A DNA stretch of 64,000 nucleotides from Aciduricibacillus chroicocephali (lineage in GTDB: Bacteria; Bacillota; Bacilli; Bacillales; Amphibacillaceae). Positions within the stretch are counted from its first letter, which is position 1; every line of letters begins with the position of its first letter. Location of the stretch: assembly GCF_030762805.1 (NCBI RefSeq), contig NZ_CP129113.1, positions 944,001-1,008,000 of the forward strand. The letters run 5' to 3'. The notes beneath the pieces were generated by a model, which saw nothing but the letters and a program-made list of their open reading frames with translations, ran no database searches and was not told the origin of the DNA. This document shows, piece by piece, positions 4,121 to 23,244 of the stretch. Position numbers and translations under genes: made by a program.

Positions 4121-4195
4121 AGAGTTGATCCCTCCGTGAATTACTCAGATTCCTATGCTTTAGTCATCTCCCATCGATTGCAAAGCATACATAAT

Positions 4196-4234
4196 AAAAA
4201 CAGCCGACACCATGATATGGAGTCGGCTGTTTTT
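4196..4234 (-). terminator. Terminator downstream of yjcG
   Basis: A 13-bp stem (AAAAACAGCCGAC at 4196-4208 with GTCGGCTGTTTTT at 4222-4234), extended inside by CCAT/ATGG pairing. The A-run on the plus strand becomes the U-run when read on the minus strand, so it ends yjcG transcription; it could also work for plus-strand transcripts. Confidence 0.8.
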
Positions 4235-4241
4235 ATTTAGT

Positions 4242-4751
4242 TCAGTTCCCGAGAACGAAGGAGTCGTACACTGTCCAAGATCCATTTTCAAGTTGATAAA
4301 GGAGATGGAAACGGTCAACTTTGTCTTGGAACTGGATTTTTTTCATGCGCAGGCTGCTGAAAACATCGGAGAATTCATCATCTGTCAAATTTTGGGCAAT
4401 TGTAATATGCGGGACGAAGGAGTGTTTACCTTGAGCAGGGAAAATTCCTTCATGCATATGACTGTTCAAGTCGATGAGTGATTGGATAGGTTCCACTTTG
4501 AAATAGATCGTATTTGTGACTGGTGCAAAGGAGCTGACCTTATTGATATAGACTGTGAATGGTTTCGTGTCCTTCGCAATGTATCTCAGTTCAGTCGATA
4601 ATTCCTTAATAAGCTCTTCTTCGGCTTCGAAAGGTGTTTTCAAAGTAATATGCGGAGGAATCAGCGAATAGTGGGGATCGTACCGCTTTCTGTACGAATT
4701 GGCTTCGTCCTGTACGGATTTGGATGGAAAAATGGCAATACCGAATTTCAT
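4242..4751 (-). CDS. yjcG: YjcG, 2'-5' RNA ligase / 2H phosphoesterase family protein
   Basis: A 169-residue member of the 2H phosphoesterase superfamily, the same size as B. subtilis YjcG. Both HxT signature motifs are present: PHITLKTPF near residue 36 and PHITIAQNL near 119. These His residues form the catalytic pair in the superfamily, which acts on 2'-5' or cyclic phosphate bonds in RNA; the real substrate of YjcG is not known. The start at 4751 was chosen because AGGAGG stands directly upstream (AGGAGGTTTTATC) and the protein begins MKFGIAIFP; an in-frame extension to 4961 looks non-coding. Confidence 0.92.
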   Translation of the reverse strand: MKFGIAIFPSKSVQDEANSYRKRYDPHYSLIPPHITLKTPFEAEEELIKELSTELRYIAKDTKPFTVYINKVSSFAPVTNTIYFKVEPIQSLIDLNSHMHEGIFPAQGKHSFVPHITIAQNLTDDEFSDVFSSLRMKKIQFQDKVDRFHLLYQLENGSWTVYDSFVLGN

Positions 4752-4973: not shown

Positions 4974-6770
4974 TTAAACATAAAGTGATGCATATTTTCC
5001 TTTTTGTGAAATCAGTTGGGCATGTGTTCCTTGTTCAATAATCTGTCCGTGTTCTAAAACAATAATTTGGTCAGCCTCTTCAACTGTGTTCAGGCGATGG
5101 GCAATAACGAAGCTTGTACGATTCCTCATCAGTTCCTTTAAGGCTTGTTGGATATGCATCTCCGTGATTGTATCTATATTACTTGTCGCCTCATCGAGTA
5201 TAAGGATTTCTGGTTCCTTCAGAAATGCTCGTGCAATTGCCAAAAGCTGTTTCTGTCCCTGACTGATGCCGCTGCCGGATTGGTCAAGCATCGTGTCATA
5301 GCCATTCGGTAAGGAGCTGATAAAATTATGTGCGTTCGCTTGTTTCGACGCAGCTATAACTTCCTCGTTTGTCGCATCTAACTTCCCATAACGGATATTT
5401 TCTCGAATAGAGCCTTTGAATAGGAATGTATCTTGAAGCACAATCGCCATATGTTGTCGCAAGCTTGTACGGCGGATGGAATTCAGTTCTATTCCATCTA
5501 GTTTTATGCTGCCTGAGTCGTAATCGTAAAAGCGGGCGATCAAGTTTGCAATTGTCGTTTTACCTGCTCCGGTATGTCCGACAAAAGCAACTGTCTGACC
5601 GGGAAGTACTTCAAAATTAATGTCTTTTAAAATGCTTCTTTCATCATATGCAAAGCCTACATTGTTAAAAGCAAAATGGCCATTTGTCTTTTTCAATTCT
5701 TTGCCTTCATCTTCCTTAAGATCCTCAGGTTGCTCATCAAGGACTTGAAAGACCCGTTCGGCTCCAGCAACAGCAGACAGGACGACATTGAACTGATTGG
5801 CAAGATCATTAAGCGGCCTTGTGAACTGGCGGGCGTATTCAATGAAAATGACAATAACACCAACTGTAATTGTACCTTTAACTGCAAGCCAGCCGCCAAA
5901 TAAAGCGATAAGAGCGAAGCTTAAAAAGTTCAGCGTATTCATTACTTTAGGAATCAAGCCGGAAATTGCCTGTGCCCAAAAGCCTGATTGTTGTAAAGCT
6001 TCATTATGGTTTCTGAAATCTTCTGCAAATCGTGCTTCCTGAGAAAATAGACGGACTATTTTCTGACCATTGAATGTTTCGTCGACAAAGCCATTCATTT
6101 CTCCAAGGTCCTTTTGTTGCAGTTTATATAAAGGGCCAGTACGATTCGTAATCCATTTCGTTCCGATGAAGAGCAATGGAACGACAATCATGGTGACTAC
6201 AGTTAGGAGAGGGCTCAGCATTAGCATAACGACTATTGTTCCGCAGAGTGTAAGTACACTTGAGAAAATCTGAATGACTGATTGATTCAATGTACTATTA
6301 ACATTGTCAATATCATTCGTGACGCGACTCATGAGGTCCCCTTGTTTCCTTTTGTCATAATAGCTAATTGGAAGCCTGTGAAATTGTTCGAAAAGCTGCT
6401 GCCTAAGCTTATAGACAATGTTCTGGCCGATGCCGACCATCCAGTAATTCTGTAAGAAGGTGGCAAGAGCAAGCAAGATATAAACGAAAGCTAATGTACC
6501 GATCAACAGGCCAAGCCCTTTTGACATGCCGCCGCTAATATACTTGTCAATTCCACGTCCAACGAGGTACGGTCCAAGCAAACTGAATACTGTGCTTAGC
6601 AAAACCATGAAAATAACGATGATGAGCATTCGTTTTTCCTTGCCAAAATAGGACCAGAGACGCTTAATTGTTCCTTTTGCATCTTTGGCTCGCTTTTTGT
6701 CCTTGCCTTTGACGTCTTTAAGTGTAATTTTCTTTTGTTGGAAAGGCTCAGTCCATTGTTTGACGTTCAC
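4974..6770 (-). CDS. ABC exporter half-transporter with catalytic NBD (YfiC-like)
   Basis: A 598-residue ABC half-transporter: a cytosolic basic N-terminus, six predicted membrane helices over about residues 45-330, then a nucleotide-binding domain. Walker A is GHTGAGKTT, Walker B is ILILDEATSNID with the catalytic Glu, and the switch His is present (VIAHRLNTV). The signature is altered to GISQGQKQL instead of LSGGQ. This combines with the adjacent partner, whose Walker B Glu and switch His are replaced, to give a heterodimer with one working and one degenerate ATP site, as in BmrCD or TM287/288. The start is GTG at 6768-6770 behind GGAAGGAGGAG and overlaps the partner gene by 23 bp, indicating coupled translation. 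Substrate unknown; multidrug export is a family-level guess. Confidence 0.9.
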   Translation of the reverse strand: MNVKQWTEPFQQKKITLKDVKGKDKKRAKDAKGTIKRLWSYFGKEKRMLIIVIFMVLLSTVFSLLGPYLVGRGIDKYISGGMSKGLGLLIGTLAFVYILLALATFLQNYWMVGIGQNIVYKLRQQLFEQFHRLPISYYDKRKQGDLMSRVTNDIDNVNSTLNQSVIQIFSSVLTLCGTIVVMLMLSPLLTVVTMIVVPLLFIGTKWITNRTGPLYKLQQKDLGEMNGFVDETFNGQKIVRLFSQEARFAEDFRNHNEALQQSGFWAQAISGLIPKVMNTLNFLSFALIALFGGWLAVKGTITVGVIVIFIEYARQFTRPLNDLANQFNVVLSAVAGAERVFQVLDEQPEDLKEDEGKELKKTNGHFAFNNVGFAYDERSILKDINFEVLPGQTVAFVGHTGAGKTTIANLIARFYDYDSGSIKLDGIELNSIRRTSLRQHMAIVLQDTFLFKGSIRENIRYGKLDATNEEVIAASKQANAHNFISSLPNGYDTMLDQSGSGISQGQKQLLAIARAFLKEPEILILDEATSNIDTITEMHIQQALKELMRNRTSFVIAHRLNTVEEADQIIVLEHGQIIEQGTHAQLISQKGKYASLYV

Positions 6771-8487
6771 GCAAAGCTCCTCCTTCCGCTTGAGATTCTA
6801 AAATTGACTGATACAGACCGGATTGAGCAAGCAGTTCCTTATGTGGAGCAAGACCGACTGCCTTTCCGCCATCAAGCAGCATGACACGATCCGCATTTTT
6901 GGCTGTTCGAATTTTTTGGGTGATCAATAAAGTCGTACATTCATACTTATCCAGAGCTTTTAGCAATTTGGATTCTGTAGTGGTATCAAGAGCGCTTGTA
7001 CTATCATCAAGCATAAGAATGAGAGGCTTGGCAATCAGAGCTCTGGCAATGGAGATACGCTGCTTCTGTCCACCGGAAAGATTCACCCCACGCTGCCCAA
7101 TAACGGTTTCATAGCCAGATTCGAGGTTAGAGATCAAGTCATGAATCTGAGCGTCTTTTGCTGCCTGTTCCATTTCTTCATCTGTAGCATTCTCTTTACC
7201 AAAAAGGATGTTCTCGCGAATTGTTCCACTGAAGAGCATCGCTTCCTGAGGAACAAAGCCGATTGATTTACGCAAATGTGTCAGATCATATTCTGTTACC
7301 GGACTTCCATCAATCGAGATAACACCTTCATCCGGGTCAAATAGGCGGGGAATCAGTTCGAATAAAGTTGTTTTACCAGTTCCAGTCGTACCCATAATGG
7401 CGATCCGTTCACCAGTTTTTATCTTAAAAGAAATGCGGTTCAAGACTTTTTGCGGTTTGTCCGGGTATGCAAAGGAGACATCATTAAACTCAATTGAGCC
7501 AGTAAGAGGGATTTTTTTGGATAGCCCAGCTATTAACGGTTTCTGGTCATCTGCTGACAGAACAGCATCTACTCTGTTCACTGAAGCTTTAGCCCGGGAA
7601 ATTGCAAGTGTAATGAAGGTGAAAGTGGAGACCATAATTGAAATTCGCAATGCATAATTGATGATTGCTACGACATCTCCGATTGAAGAATTGCCAGCAA
7701 CTGACTCACGATGCCCGAACCAAAGAATAAATAGTAATGTGGCATTCATGATAACGAGCAGAAGAGGCATTGAAGCCTCAACAAACCGAAAAGTATTCCT
7801 TGTTTCATCTGCAAGTTTTCTATTTGCCGCTTTAAAGCGCTTTTCTTCATGCTTTCTGCGTACGAAAGCTCTAATCAACTTCATACCGGATAAATTCTCC
7901 TGCATGACCTGGTTCACTTCATCGACATTTTCCTGAACAGTATTGAAGCGTTCTCCAGCTTTTTTTAGTACCCAAAATAGAAAAATGAGAGCGGCTGGGA
8001 CTGTAATTAAGAAAACAACAGCAATTTTTGCATCTAATAGAAAGGCCATAATGATTGAACCGATTATTGTCAGAGGAGCCTTTGCCATGATTCGCATGCC
8101 CATGAACAATGTATTTTGAATTTGCCGGATATCATTGGTGAACCTTGTGACAAGAGCAGACGCAGGGAAACGTGCCATATTCCTATATGAAAAATTTTGG
8201 ACTTTATTAAAAAGGTCTGTTCGTAAATCAGAGCTGAAACGAATGGCGGCGAAAGAGCCATAAAAAGAATTAGCAAGTCCTGCTAGAAATGCTATAAGGG
8301 ATATGCCAATCATGATCGTCCCCCAATACATGACAATGGACAAATCCTGGTGCAGGACACCTTCATTAATCATCTTTGCGAGCATTACAGGGAGAACAAG
8401 GTCGATTCCCATTTCCGCAATGGTGAGAATAAGAGCAAGCAAAGCAGGCAGGCGGTATGGTTTTAAGTAAGTAAGAATCAATTTCAT
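6748..8487 (-). CDS. ABC exporter half-transporter with degenerate NBD (YfiB-like)
   Basis: A 579-residue ABC half-transporter with an N-terminal six-helix membrane domain and a C-terminal ATPase domain. Walker A GTTGTGKTT and signature NLSGGQKQR are intact, but Walker B reads LILMLDDSTSALD (Asp instead of the catalytic Glu) and the switch region is LLITQKIRT (Gln instead of His). These are the usual substitutions in the non-catalytic site of heterodimeric exporters. The chosen ATG (MKLILTYLKPY) has AAGGG some 12 bases upstream; another in-frame ATG at 8508 would add seven residues. It is the first gene of a two-gene operon with the YfiC-like half. Confidence 0.9.
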   Translation of the reverse strand: MKLILTYLKPYRLPALLALILTIAEMGIDLVLPVMLAKMINEGVLHQDLSIVMYWGTIMIGISLIAFLAGLANSFYGSFAAIRFSSDLRTDLFNKVQNFSYRNMARFPASALVTRFTNDIRQIQNTLFMGMRIMAKAPLTIIGSIIMAFLLDAKIAVVFLITVPAALIFLFWVLKKAGERFNTVQENVDEVNQVMQENLSGMKLIRAFVRRKHEEKRFKAANRKLADETRNTFRFVEASMPLLLVIMNATLLFILWFGHRESVAGNSSIGDVVAIINYALRISIMVSTFTFITLAISRAKASVNRVDAVLSADDQKPLIAGLSKKIPLTGSIEFNDVSFAYPDKPQKVLNRISFKIKTGERIAIMGTTGTGKTTLFELIPRLFDPDEGVISIDGSPVTEYDLTHLRKSIGFVPQEAMLFSGTIRENILFGKENATDEEMEQAAKDAQIHDLISNLESGYETVIGQRGVNLSGGQKQRISIARALIAKPLILMLDDSTSALDTTTESKLLKALDKYECTTLLITQKIRTAKNADRVMLLDGGKAVGLAPHKELLAQSGLYQSILESQAEGGALRERQTMD

Positions 8488-8611
8488 GTTGCAATGCAAT
8501 CCCTTCATGAATTCAAACTAATTTATCTTCCTATTATACTTGCATTTTTGATTGTTCAAAAATCTTATGACTTAATTAATAAAAACGTATCCTATTTTAG
8601 GTAATTTTTCA

Positions 8612-8640
8612 TTGACGTGATAACTGGAAGGAAATACTAT
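8612..8640 (+). promoter_or_regulatory. SigA-type promoter for the GGDEF-EAL gene
   Basis: TTGACG (8612-8617) and TACTAT (8635-8640) are separated by exactly 17 bases. Transcription would begin near 8647. The promoter covers the upstream GTG at 8617 that would give the longest reading frame, so that GTG cannot be the start codon of the message made here. Confidence 0.6.
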
Positions 8641-8784
8641 TTAATTATAGATAAAAATAAACGACTTTCTCCGCAGAAATGGCGGAGCTTCATAGATTGT
8701 ACAGGTCAGGGCCTGGCTCGGCGCCATTCCTGTCATTTGCATGATGTTTCGGATTCGGCGAGGAATCTCAGGGGGGTTGCAAAA
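8641..8784 (+). promoter_or_regulatory. Hairpin-rich 5' leader of the GGDEF-EAL gene
   Basis: About 140 bases lie between the promoter and the likely TTG start. Three hairpins can be drawn: CTCCGC/GCGGAG near 8671-8689, ACAGG (8701-8705)/CCTGT (8729-8733) enclosing TGGC/GCCA, and GATTC/GAATC near 8753-8768. The last is followed closely by the ribosome site AGGGGGG (8770-8776). I see no match to the cyclic-di-GMP-I riboswitch core. It may be a structured regulatory leader or simply untranslated sequence. Confidence 0.35.
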
Positions 8785-10914
8785 TTGAGCACAACATCTG
8801 ACACCGACGTACAAGGATTGCAACATCAAAAAGAGAGTGAACAATCGATACAGAGTCTGCTTAAAGATTTGCAAGATATTAAATATGCACTGGATCAGTC
8901 TTCTATTGTTGCAATTACAGATCAGCGAGGCAGAATTAAGTATGTAAACGATCATTTCTGCAAGATATCTAAATACAAACGTGATGAACTTCTTGGAAAG
9001 GATCATAGCCTTGTCAATTCCGGTTATCACGAAAAAGGCTTCTTTAAAGAGATGTGGGCAACAATTGGAAAGGGTCATATATGGAGAGGGGAAATTAGAA
9101 ACAGGGCGAAAGATGGAACGCTTTATTGGGTGGATACAACGATAGTTCCTTACTTGAATGAGAAAGGAAAACCTTATCAGTATGTTGCAATTCGCAATGA
9201 TATAACCAAGCGTAAGGAAATGGAAGAGAAAATTCGGGAGAGTGAAGAGAAATACAGGCTCATTACTGAGAATTCCGGAGATCTGATTTCTGTCATCGAT
9301 AAAGAAGGAAATATTCGTTATTTGTCCCCTTCGCATGGTGAACTGCTCGGTACAAGAGTTGCCAATGATTTGACTGGGAATCTCCTTGATTGGATTCATG
9401 AAGAAGATCACAAGATGTTATGTGCAGAGCTAATCCTGCTCGCCGCAATGAAGAAAAAAACTTCTCACATTGAGATTCGAATTAAATCAAGCAGCAATAT
9501 TTATCATGTCATGGATACGAGAATTAACCCTGTAAAAACAGAGGAAGGAATAAGAGATTTTGTTCTTATTATGCGAGATGTGACAGAGCGTAAAAACTCA
9601 GAAAAGATGATCTATCACCTCGCATATCATGACACGCTTACAGACCTTCCAAATAGACGTATGTACATGAATACTTTAAGAAAAGAAGTCCATGAGGCAA
9701 ATGAGTCCCATACGAAATTTGCGGTCGTATTCATCGACCTTGATAATTTCAAGCATATTAACGACTCTTGGGGACATGAGAATGGAGATTATCTGCTGGC
9801 GGAAGTGGCTGCCAGAATGAAAAAATCAATTCGTGATTCGGACGTCGTAGCCCGATTCGGTGGAGATGAGTTCACAGTACTGTTACGTGATGTGCCAAGC
9901 CTGACTGTCTTGCATCAGATGGCGAAACGCATCCACAGTGATTTTCAGAAACCATTAGAGATTGATGGCCAGCGCTATACACCGTCCTGCAGCATGGGAA
10001 TCGCTCTATATCCCGAACATAGTATAGATGCAGATGATTTACTGAAAAAAGCTGATACAGCATTGTATACAGTTAAAGAACGCGGACGAAATGGATATGC
10101 AATATTTGATGAGAAGATGGAGCGCAAGTCACTTGAAATTATTCTGATGGAAAATGAAATGCAAAAAGCAATTGAGCATGATCAATTCCATATTGATTAT
10201 CAGCCTAAGATGGATTTGGCTTCAAATAAATTGATCGGTATGGAAGCGCTCGTTCGCTGGAAGCACCCGGAGCTCGGTCTTATTCCACCGAACAAGTTCA
10301 TACCGCTTGCCGAAGATTGTGGTCTGATTATGAAGCTCGGGGAATGGGTTCTTAGACACAGCTGCGAACAGAATAAGAAATGGCAGGACAAAGGCTACGA
10401 ACCGATAGTCGTTTCCGTAAACCTTTCACCATACCAGGTCATGCATCCAGCTATTGTTCAGAGGATAAAGGATGTCCTTGCCGATACAGGGATGAATCCT
10501 AAATGGCTCGAACTGGAAGTGACTGAGAGTATTTTTACCAATGTGGACCATGCTTCCGGCGTATTACAAGAGCTGAGAGACCTCGGCATTCAAATTTCCA
10601 TTGATGACTTTGGAACCGGATACAGCTCGTTCAGCTATATTAAAAATCTGCCGGTAGATACTTTGAAAATAGATGCTTCATTTATCCAAGACATCGATCA
10701 GAACAAAGAAAGCCAGGCAATCGTTCAAGCGGTTCTTGCTGTCGCCAAAACACTTGGAATCGGAGTTATTGCAGAGGGGATTGAAAGCAGTGACCAGCTT
10801 GGGGTTCTATTGGAAGATGGTTGTGCTCAGGGGCAAGGCTACTTCTTCAGTAAACCACTCCCTAGTGAAGACTTTGAAAGCTATTTGAAAGGTGCTGGAC
10901 CAGACTCGGATTAA
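8785..10914 (+). CDS. PAS-PAS-GGDEF-EAL cyclic-di-GMP synthase/phosphodiesterase
   Basis: A 709-residue signalling enzyme: two PAS/PAC sensor modules (about residues 30-150 and 155-275), a GGDEF domain and an EAL domain. The GGDEF motif is intact ([12 protein letters not shown]) and has an inhibitory-site RxxD (RDSD) five residues before it. The EAL domain keeps [20 protein letters not shown] and EGIES. Both making and breaking of cyclic-di-GMP are therefore possible. No membrane segment is seen. The TTG at 8785 was chosen because AGGGGGG precedes it by eight bases and because the longer frame starting at 8617 runs through a promoter. It resembles B. subtilis YkoW/DgcW-type proteins in layout. 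A PilZ protein, a possible receptor, lies at 31899-32570. Confidence 0.92.
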
Positions 10915-10931
10915 ATTAAGTAAGTAATAAG

Positions 10932-10985
10932 AGTACCGGATTTCCTATTTTGGTTAAGATTCTGGGGAAATTCGGTACTTAATTT
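10932..10985 (+). terminator. Terminator after the GGDEF-EAL gene
   Basis: A 14-bp stem with one G-U pair: AGTACCGGATTTCC (10932-10945) with GGAAATTCGGTACT (10966-10979), a 20-base loop, then TAATTT. The T-run is weak. Confidence 0.65.
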
Positions 10986-11022
10986 AAATATGAAATGAAT
11001 AGCTAAATATATTAAAGAATTG

Positions 11023-11051
11023 TTGACTTCATTTTAAATCTCATGTATATT
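11023..11051 (+). promoter_or_regulatory. Promoter of the tRNA-Val gene
   Basis: TTGACT (11023-11028) and TATATT (11046-11051) spaced by 17 bases, ending 25 bases before the first tRNA base. This is a good SigA match for a single-gene tRNA transcription unit. Confidence 0.65.
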
Positions 11052-11076
11052 ATTAACTGTAATACATATCCCATGC

Positions 11077-11149
11077 GATTCCTTAGCTCAGCTGGGAGAG
11101 CGCTACCTTGACAGGGTAGAGGTCGCTGGTTCGAGCCCAGTAGGAATCA
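11077..11149 (+). tRNA. tRNA-Val (anticodon GAC)
   Basis: A complete cloverleaf can be drawn: acceptor GATTCCT/AGGAATC, D-arm GCTC/GAGC with AGCTGGGA loop, anticodon arm CTACC-TTGACAG-GGTAG, variable AGGTC, and T-arm GCTGG-TTCGAGC-CCAGT. The anticodon is GAC, reading valine codons. The discriminator A is at 11149 and CCA is not encoded. The 3' half of this gene (from 11108) is duplicated at 13736, marking it as an integration site. Confidence 0.96.
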
Positions 11150-11164
11150 TCGAGTGAGAAGAGC
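11108..11164 (+). repeat. Left direct repeat (tRNA-Val 3' half), attL-like
   Basis: Bases from the anticodon loop to 15 bases past the tRNA end. It is identical to the copy at 13736-13792 except for one C-to-A change, in the T-arm. Confidence 0.85.
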
Positions 11165-11205
11165 TTGAAATCCTTTATTTGTAAGGGGTTTGAGCTCTTT
11201 TTCTG
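11159..11205 (+). terminator. Terminator of the tRNA-Val gene
   Basis: An imperfect 17-bp stem starting AAGAGCTTGAAATCC at 11159 and closing with the GGGGTTTGAGCTC segment, followed by TTTTTCTG. A diverged version of the same hairpin follows the repeat copy at 13736. Confidence 0.7.
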
Positions 11206-12066
11206 TTTCCATTTATAGTGTTTTATAATATTGTAAGCGGGGCGTGGCATGATTTGTTTAACGGATGCTATTCTCTAAATAAAATACTATCCAATCGGAG
11301 CCGAGCTAGTTGCTGCATACTCTAGTAGTTAAGCAATTATACGGCAAGAATATGAAACGAAAAGCCAATAATAATAAATCCTCAAAGTTACAAATCCATA
11401 ATAAAAGCTGTAAATTCTTTAGTTCAAGAGGATTCGGAACCCTAGAGTACCTAAATAGATACTTTGTTATACGGAACAAGATGCGAAATGCTATAATGTT
11501 TATTATATTCACAGTTATGTAATTTTTATCATTTATGGTAATTTTGTATAATTTACAATCACTGATTGGCGGTTTGGAATATATGCTTAAGTGCAAAGCT
11601 GGGAACCTCGATGATGCTGCTGTTTTATACCTGAGTTTCTTCAACTTATCATTAGCTTAAATAAGCATATGCAGTTTCGCCCACATACATAATGATAAGC
11701 ATCATTGACCTTAGCCAATCGAAACACTTCCGTACTTTTACTGCAAGAAGTCGTTCCCACTTCTCTAAGACTAGCAATTCAGTCTGAAAACAGCAGTAAA
11801 GACCTTGCCTAATGATTGCTACGTTGATTTTCTGCATTGGCTCAACTAACCTTATCTGTTATTTATCGTGATTTAAGGGCGTTCCCACGGTTATGCTTTT
11901 AAGTAATTTTTCATGTCGAACTACTGAAACGAAAGCGTTTTGACAGAGGTGGTAGCTCTGACTCAAAAGGGATTTATTCTTTTTAAAATAAACAAAACCT
12001 TTTAATAAGAAAAATGCAATATTAAATTTTCGTTAACGGAAAGAATCAAATGTAACGGAGGCAAAG
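11206..12066. other. AT-rich gene-poor stretch inside the island
   Basis: About 860 bases without a convincing gene. Open frames of 60-112 codons on the minus strand lack ribosome sites and family resemblance. The stretch holds a 22-base repeat (11672-11693), a small hairpin AAACG-AAAG-CGTTT near 11928, and the leader of the OLD gene. The minus-strand frame ending near 11652 finishes IMYVGETAYAYLS and could be the decayed tail of a lost gene; I cannot identify it. Confidence 0.5.
11672..11693. repeat. 22-base repeat, copy 1
   Basis: This segment, beginning CAGTTTCGCCCACATAC, recurs at 14115-14136 with one mismatch. One copy lies inside the OLD island, the other just after its right repeat. 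Confidence 0.7.
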
Positions 12067-18985: not shown

Positions 18986-19036
18986 TCGCCGTTAATCTGT
19001 TACGTCGAATAATGTTAAATCATATGAAGTATATTC

Positions 19037-19070
19037 AGCGACTGGCAGTAAAAGCCAGTCGCTTTCATTT
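19037..19070 (+). terminator. Terminator after tatA
   Basis: Perfect 10-bp stem AGCGACTGGC (19037-19046)/GCCAGTCGCT (19054-19063) with a seven-base loop and TTCATTTT tail. Confidence 0.85.
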
Positions 19071-19147
19071 TACGTAAAGTCTTTTTTTGTCTAGTTGAAA
19101 TTCAAGAGGGGAATACTTTAATTGGATACAAAGGAGGGCAACAATAC

Positions 19148-22526: not shown

Positions 22527-23036
22527 TCACCTCTTTTTGAATTGGGTCAGTCTACTTGTAGAAAAAACATTTTTTCGAAGTCTGACAGTAAGAAAGAGCC
22601 CGATTATCGCTCCAGAAATACTGCTTATAAGAAAAGATGGCATGAAGAAAAAAACACCAAAAGATGTATGCATAAAAAATTTCGCGAATGGAATAGCAAC
22701 TAATGAGGCAACAATACCTGTTCCAATAATTTCTCCTATGGCTGCAAAAGAAGGACGGCCGCTTAATCGGAACAGGATACCCGCGAATAAAGCGCCAATC
22801 ATTCCTCCTGGAAAAGCGAGCAGAGAACCAATTCCAAGCATATTGCGTACAAGGGCCATTACGAAAGCTGCCAAAACAGCAGGACCGGGGCCGAACAGGA
22901 TGGCGGCGATGACATTCACTGCATGCTGGACTGGATATGCTTTTGCAATGCCGGCAGGGAACCAGAGAAACTGAGAGCAGAGTGTACCGATTGCGATAAG
23001 AGCAGCAAGGGCTGCCATTACATTTACTCTTTTCAA
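22527..23036 (-). CDS. thiW: ECF transporter S-component ThiW
   Basis: A 169-residue hydrophobic protein with about five or six membrane segments, rich in Ala, Gly and Phe, with FPAGIAKAYPVQHAVNVIAA near the N-terminus and FPGGMIGALFAGI, as in ThiW. ThiW is the substrate-binding component of an energy-coupling-factor transporter and is predicted to import the thiazole precursor, matching the ThiM kinase. The TTG at 23036 was chosen since AAAGGA is nine bases upstream; an ATG at 23060 would sit on the terminator's U-run without a ribosome site. The shared EcfAAT module is not in the window. Confidence 0.9.
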   Translation of the reverse strand: MKRVNVMAALAALIAIGTLCSQFLWFPAGIAKAYPVQHAVNVIAAILFGPGPAVLAAFVMALVRNMLGIGSLLAFPGGMIGALFAGILFRLSGRPSFAAIGEIIGTGIVASLVAIPFAKFFMHTSFGVFFFMPSFLISSISGAIIGLFLTVRLRKNVFSTSRLTQFKKR

Positions 23037-23059
23037 ATGGCAAAATCCTTTCATATTCA

Positions 23060-23094
23060 TATAAAAAAGCCGGTTTCAGCTGAAACCGGCTTTT
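23060..23094 (-). terminator. Attenuator terminator of the TPP riboswitch
   Basis: A perfect 11-bp inverted repeat, GCCGGTTTCAG/CTGAAACCGGC (23069-23090), flanked by A-run and T-run so that the minus-strand RNA ends in six U residues just before thiW. It lies between the riboswitch aptamer and the operon and is the expected off-switch. Confidence 0.9.
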
Positions 23095-23130
23095 GAGGGT
23101 ATGCGAAATTGAACGGAATTAAATCCGCAT

Positions 23131-23216
23131 CTACTTCCCTCCGCTGGTATGAGCCAGATCAGGTTCTTAAGGGTTGGATGTATCCTCTCAGCCTTTATAG
23201 TGGGCACCCCTAGTAG
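23131..23216 (-). promoter_or_regulatory. TPP riboswitch (THI element)
   Basis: On the minus strand the aptamer core is complete: CTACTAGGGGTGCC, then GGCTGAGAGGA, ACCCTTAAGAACCTGATCTGG and GCGGAGGGAAGTAG (shown in pieces; 23216 down to 23131). It binds thiamine pyrophosphate and controls the thiW-thiD-thiM-thiE operon through the terminator at 23060-23094. Confidence 0.96.
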
Positions 23217-23244
23217 CTTGATAGTTTATTCATTAATCAGCCAT

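Follow-up and report, generated by a model that had tools for sequence, protein, structure and literature searches.

An ordinary leader probably precedes the PAS-PAS-GGDEF-EAL gene of Aciduricibacillus chroicocephali, whose translation likely starts at TTG 8785

Is the DNA at 8612-8784, immediately ahead of a cyclic-di-GMP enzyme gene of Aciduricibacillus chroicocephali, a structured regulatory leader or an ordinary untranslated region, and at which codon does the enzyme begin? The window, i.e. the whole stretch of DNA that was analysed, comprises 64,000 nucleotides (positions 944001-1008000; the genome is a single contig of 2.73 Mb). The longest open frame containing the enzyme gene runs from 8617 to 10914 on the plus strand, is open already from 8605, and encodes two PAS domains, a GGDEF and an EAL domain according to Pfam. 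We consider it reasonably probable (about 0.68) that this segment serves as an ordinary 5' untranslated leader for an inserted PAS-PAS-GGDEF-EAL gene, which starts at TTG 8785 and has no dedicated RNA switch. The following features define the gene and its possible starts:

8617 to 8619, plus strand: GTG, the first start codon of the longest frame; use unlikely (Shine-Dalgarno energy -3.8; 90 residues before ALDQ)
8770 to 8776, plus strand: Shine-Dalgarno-like AGGGGGG (anti-Shine-Dalgarno duplex -11.2 kcal/mol)
8785 to 10914, plus strand: PAS-PAS-GGDEF-EAL protein, 709 aa from the TTG (Pfam domains, motifs, alignment)

The 709-residue protein contains the motifs GGDEF, RxxD before GGDEF, EALVR, and DDFGTG, and with its PAS, GGDEF, and EAL domains it belongs to the PAS-GGDEF-EAL enzymes. 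As a set, these motifs would indicate a cyclase that is active and product-inhibited, together with an active phosphodiesterase. In total, 14 GGDEF domains are found across the genome.

Pairing with the 3' end of the 16S rRNA amounts to -11.2 kcal/mol for TTG 8785, -3.8 for GTG 8617, -1.7 for TTG 8737, and -0.7 for TTG 8818. At 25 gene starts of the window, which were chosen mechanically for this comparison, the energy is -8.2 or lower in 19 cases and between -3.6 and -1.3 in the other six. TTG 8785 falls into the range of the 19 stronger genes, and GTG 8617 is close to the median of random sites (-3.0). A weak ribosome site by itself cannot exclude the GTG start because six of the 25 starts are equally weak. 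The conserved ALDQ motif is preceded by 34 residues when counted from TTG 8785, by 90 when counted from GTG 8617, and by 33-41 in seven orthologues, for which the starts judged likeliest were used and whose identity is 50-60% in six and 49% in the seventh (L099), where the comparison covers part of the protein. The N-terminal extension from the GTG is essentially without counterpart when aligned with three orthologues. Based on the Shine-Dalgarno energies and on the lengths and alignment of the orthologue N-termini, TTG 8785 is the likely start and GTG 8617 an unlikely one. The first-pass annotation had already doubted an annotation from GTG 8617 and preferred TTG 8785 behind AGGGGGG, and both lines of evidence agree with it. 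Translation would accordingly begin at this TTG, and the in-frame GTG would be an accident of the open frame.

With this start, the gene is preceded by a stretch whose composition differs from its surroundings:

8661 to 8784, plus strand: GC-rich (53%) untranslated leader (composition, codon score; no homologue in what was searched)

The GC content is 53% in the leader, 22% in the upstream region 8509-8660, 42% in the gene, and 40% in the window. Of 2061 segments of 124 bases, just 29 (the top 1.4%) are as GC-rich, and all of 19 control leaders are below it, with at most 47%. This is the leader's one unusual trait. Published work has sought structured RNAs in intergenic regions that are rich in GC and longer than average (PMC8632094), and for this reason the GC content counts against an ordinary leader. 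The stretch is non-coding. Scores per codon in the six frames of 8661-8784 range from -0.18 to -0.36, all six below the 5th percentile (-0.11) of true gene chunks (mean +0.07, sd 0.10; off frame -0.42, sd 0.16). A decayed coding sequence was considered on account of a short match to the leader frame KNKRLSP inside an apparent tyrosine recombinase gene (L145), and was rejected, the codon scores not being gene-like; searches of Pfam, NCBIfam, and PDB with this frame gave no match.

If the leader were a conserved regulatory element, relatives should be expected to share it. At E 0.001, the leader matched nothing but itself when its DNA was searched against 60 relatives, none of them from the same genus. 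In 397 genomes of the order, the own genome included, some match at E 1 was found in 333, mostly short ones. Among the matches listed, the best non-self match covers 36 bases (86%, E 4.7e-5 for that genome), and it puts one further genome of the order below E 0.001. Nine of the short matches, read individually, show no shared surroundings. A one-sequence covariance model, whose alignment consists of the same leader twice and carries no covariation information, retrieved only the leader itself from 155 family genomes under stricter filters and from 38 sources. The upstream regions of 109 related genes contain no homologous leader, the best match (E 5.6e-4) covering 22 bases (8515-8536) that do not belong to the GC-rich stretch. 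Within these genomes and upstream regions a conserved leader is therefore rejected. A mobile repeat was also discarded, as the leader is single-copy in the genome at E 0.001, plasmids gave nothing, and phages only one match of about 35 bases (E 0.05). The first-pass annotation had named two findings that together would speak against regulation, namely no conservation of the hairpins in relatives and no effect of ligand or temperature; the covariance comparison it suggested yielded no homologue, which corresponds to the first of these for the relatives covered. Because no second species of the genus is among the relatives, the missing homologues are a lack of evidence rather than a disproof.

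The neighbourhood of the gene suggests where the leader may have come from:

6748 to 8508, minus strand: divergent ABC-transporter gene, left flank of the putatively inserted unit (relatives' loci compared)
11077 to 11149, plus strand: tRNA-Val (GAC), right flank and neighbour of the ABC gene in relatives (relatives' loci compared)

A relative of the ABC-transporter gene is present in 54 of 60 family genomes, the own genome included, and the 29 best loci, one per other genome, were examined with flanks of 1.5 kb. tRNA-Val (GAC) lies within the flank at 17 of them and no tRNA at the remaining 12, so that the ancestral order is not universal. The gap between the ABC gene and the tRNA is 166-663 bases at 13 of the 17 loci and 954-1358 bases at four; here it measures 2568 bases and encloses the enzyme gene. 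The ABC gene is divergent, as here, in 14 of 17 scorable loci. Relatives of the enzyme (E 1e-5) are absent from the 29 loci except for a 57-residue GGDEF-like piece in L170. The best orthologue of the family (G068, 54%) is located at 2.76 Mb in a genome whose ABC gene is at 1.24 Mb. Thus, the enzyme gene was probably either newly acquired or relocated to a place between two long-standing neighbours, and we infer insertion rather than relocation. Since the gap is 166-663 bases in 13 of 17 relatives and 2568 bases here, the gene probably arrived together with its GC-rich leader, in its own lineage, between the ABC-transporter gene and tRNA-Val (GAC). The step in composition near 8660 would be consistent with the left boundary of the acquired segment. 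Because four relatives have gaps of 954-1358 bases, the interval 8509-11076 is a candidate insertion hot spot.

The same composition step and the inserted position of the gene could also mean that the GC-rich stretch is a functionless remnant of foreign DNA, either a junction or a decayed gene, which entered together with the enzyme gene. This is unlikely: the order genomes, plasmids, and phages searched contain no homologue to name a source, 8481-8800 and 10881-11180 share no 10-mer that would reveal flanking direct or inverted repeats, and the proposal is not sharply separable from that of an ordinary leader.

If an ordinary leader was inserted, its transcription would probably start within the AT-rich 8509-8660, DNA that the neighbourhood would have supplied. 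A promoter had indeed been claimed there:

8612 to 8640, plus strand: sigma-70-type promoter-like match TTGACG-17-TACTAT (9 of 12; unproven)

The match consists of TTGACG at 8612-8617, whose final base is shared with GTG 8617, a spacer of 17 nucleotides, and TACTAT at 8635-8640. It is present as described, with the GTG inside, but does not exceed chance: at least one match of 9 of 12 on that strand occurs in 479 of 1000 dinucleotide shuffles of 8509-8660. At least two occur in 138 of 1000 shuffles, and two were observed, the second beginning at 8512. Both strands of 7500-12000 contain 17 such sites compared to 12.8 (sd 3.5) expected. The promoter may have been called correctly, yet the match does not count as evidence for it.

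Could the leader RNA nevertheless belong to a known class? Neither at gathering score nor up to E 10 did Rfam report a cis-regulatory family in 8520-8850, and a known riboswitch is ruled out on these grounds. The weak matches there are far under the cut-off (sau-30 at 8551-8610, minus strand, 18.3 of 70 bits; CRISPR-DR36 at 8776-8824, 15.6 of 38 bits). The c-di-GMP-I riboswitch (RF01051) is likewise a leader RNA tied to c-di-GMP, but its model does not match this leader at gathering score or up to E 10, which bears out the first-pass view that the leader is not a c-di-GMP-I aptamer. As a positive control, the same model found four matches elsewhere in the genome (70-86 bits), none of which is at the PAS-PAS-GGDEF-EAL gene. 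These are located at L112-L115 (G000:C1 2636291, 1680035, 2536465, and 266245), the one at L115 just before a frame that by eye resembles a PAS-type sensor. The c-di-GMP-II riboswitch (RF01786), also a c-di-GMP-linked leader, has no match in the leader up to E 10, whereas one occurs near a related gene: in 20 related loci it gave the only Rfam match at gathering score (L090, 1189-1276, minus strand), which lies 3' of the related GGDEF-EAL gene by the orientation as read.

The genes for the other 13 GGDEF domains of the genome offer leaders without known riboswitch for comparison. As here, a ribosome site precedes the gene. The studied gene differs in its TTG start and in the 53% GC of the 100 bases before the start compared to at most 49% elsewhere, as determined from the listed candidate starts (none was listed for region L133). 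A motif common to these genes and the leader was found neither by eye nor with the leader covariance model. The GC-rich intergenic non-coding RNA candidates of the Breaker laboratory resemble the leader in being GC-rich non-coding stretches in a lower-GC genome; they rest on comparative sequence analysis (PMC8632094), while the searches described above found no second member for the leader. Among the leaders of related genes, that of Paenibacillus sp. 1_12 (L003, about 1201-1413) contains a long inverted repeat, TATATAAGATGAACCAAA ... TTTGGTTCATCTTATATA, which is MITE-like by eye, and those of L004 and L083 each carry a short hairpin, with a T run behind it, just before the ribosome site, by eye possible attenuators or upstream terminators.

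The leader itself contains three short inverted repeats:

8669 to 8687, plus strand: inverted repeat CTCCGC/GCGGAG, hairpin 1, 6 bp (pair probabilities 0.06-0.91 depending on the 3' end)
8701 to 8733, plus strand: inverted repeat ACAGG/CCTGT, hairpin 2, 5 bp core (0.22-0.97 depending on the 3' end)
8751 to 8768, plus strand: inverted repeat GGATTC/GAATCT, hairpin 3, 6 bp (0.05-0.79 depending on the 3' end)

Hairpin 3 ends one base short of AGGGGGG. Three hairpins with the last adjoining the ribosome site had been described before, and the inverted repeats do exist, but the leader folds no better than its shuffles (z -0.63 and -0.66, matched or surpassed by 47 and 52 of 200 shuffles; -0.64 and -0.55 in a repeat run). 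A fold stabler than that of shuffled sequence, as would mark a novel structured leader, is thus not seen at z about -0.6, although the test is weak, as a TPP riboswitch in the window scores +1.1. For the four c-di-GMP-I aptamers, z ranges from -1.4 to -2.6 on their presumed own strand and from -0.9 to -2.0 on the other. The TPP riboswitch (23119-23221, minus strand) lies upstream of the minus-strand gene 22527-23060. Strongly stable leader folds are present at 19024-19147 (plus strand, z -6.1) and 4121-4244 (minus strand, z -5.1), both with terminator-like hairpins, and a long self-complementary stretch of the former also pairs with its GGAGG ribosome site. The core of hairpin 3 has a pair probability of 0.79 in 8647-8784, which drops to 0.07 when 16 bases are added at the 3' side (8647-8800), and is 0.20, 0.42, and 0.39 in the longer contexts 8647-8830, 8647-8860, and 8647-8900. 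Another inverted repeat, GTTGCAA ... TTGCAAC at 8776-8825, spans the TTG start and is paired in the folds of 8647-8830 and 8750-8830. An attenuator built as an intrinsic terminator (GC-rich hairpin with T run) is absent from the leader, the sole terminator-like site listed in 7500-12000 being 9543-9528 on the minus strand.

Taken together, a structured regulatory leader is unsupported. It is still conceivable that the leader is an orphan translational switch, in which base pairing of 8662-8670 with 8771-8779 (GGGGGGTTG) would seal a multi-helix junction and mask the ribosome site until a ligand or temperature opens it. Besides the GC-rich patch at the leader, such a clamp is part of the minimum-energy fold of 8661-8784 (pair probabilities 0.41-0.83; 0.40-0.80 in 8647-8784), and the mean unpaired probability of the ribosome site 8770-8776 is 0.18-0.40 in five contexts starting at 8647 or 8655. 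However, five of the nine pairs are G-U, the clamp probability does not exceed 0.01 in any of the four contexts that include at least 16 bases of the gene, and the ribosome site reaches an unpaired probability of 0.58 when 8750-8830 is folded alone. Given also that the leader folds like its shuffles and that the genomes searched hold no homologue, we regard the switch as quite doubtful. A lineage-specific translational regulator, in which the 5' pyrimidine stretch of the GC-rich leader, acquired with the gene, would clamp the G-rich ribosome site before the first codons are transcribed and would sense something through no known aptamer class, appears distinctly improbable.

Two tiny frames within the leader invite a further explanation:

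8679 to 8744, plus strand: 21-codon ATG frame, its TGA overlapping ATG 8741; probably chance (Shine-Dalgarno energy +0.1)
8741 to 8788, plus strand: 15-codon ATG frame, its TGA overlapping TTG 8785; probably chance (Shine-Dalgarno energy -1.4)

Through the ATGA and TTGA overlaps, both exact in the sequence, the frames could couple translation of the leader to that of the enzyme gene, but the chain, spotted after the fact, also appears in 173 of 5000 dinucleotide shuffles, neither frame has a ribosome site or a family match, and the upstream regions of the 109 related genes yielded no homologous leader, making coupling very unlikely. Least credible is that GTG 8617 is the true start of an enzyme with a 56-residue N-terminal extension, for although the frame is open from 8605 and six of the 25 mechanically chosen starts have sites as weak, the GTG has no ribosome site (-3.8), its 90 residues before ALDQ compare to 33-41 from the likely starts of the seven orthologues, its codon score is -0.25, and the extension frame has no match in Pfam, NCBIfam, or PDB.

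Computation supports the choice of start, the domains, the missing leader homologue in the genomes searched, and the altered neighbourhood in relatives. For the ordinary leader that we prefer, we infer that RNA regulation is absent, and the output of the gene would then probably depend on the promoter in 8509-8660 and on the protein's PAS sensors rather than on a dedicated RNA switch. If the leader were a switch after all, RNA would control a c-di-GMP enzyme in a genome with c-di-GMP riboswitches already present elsewhere. The value of the analysis hardly extends past annotation: a likely start is assigned to one c-di-GMP enzyme, with a caution against calling the longest frame.
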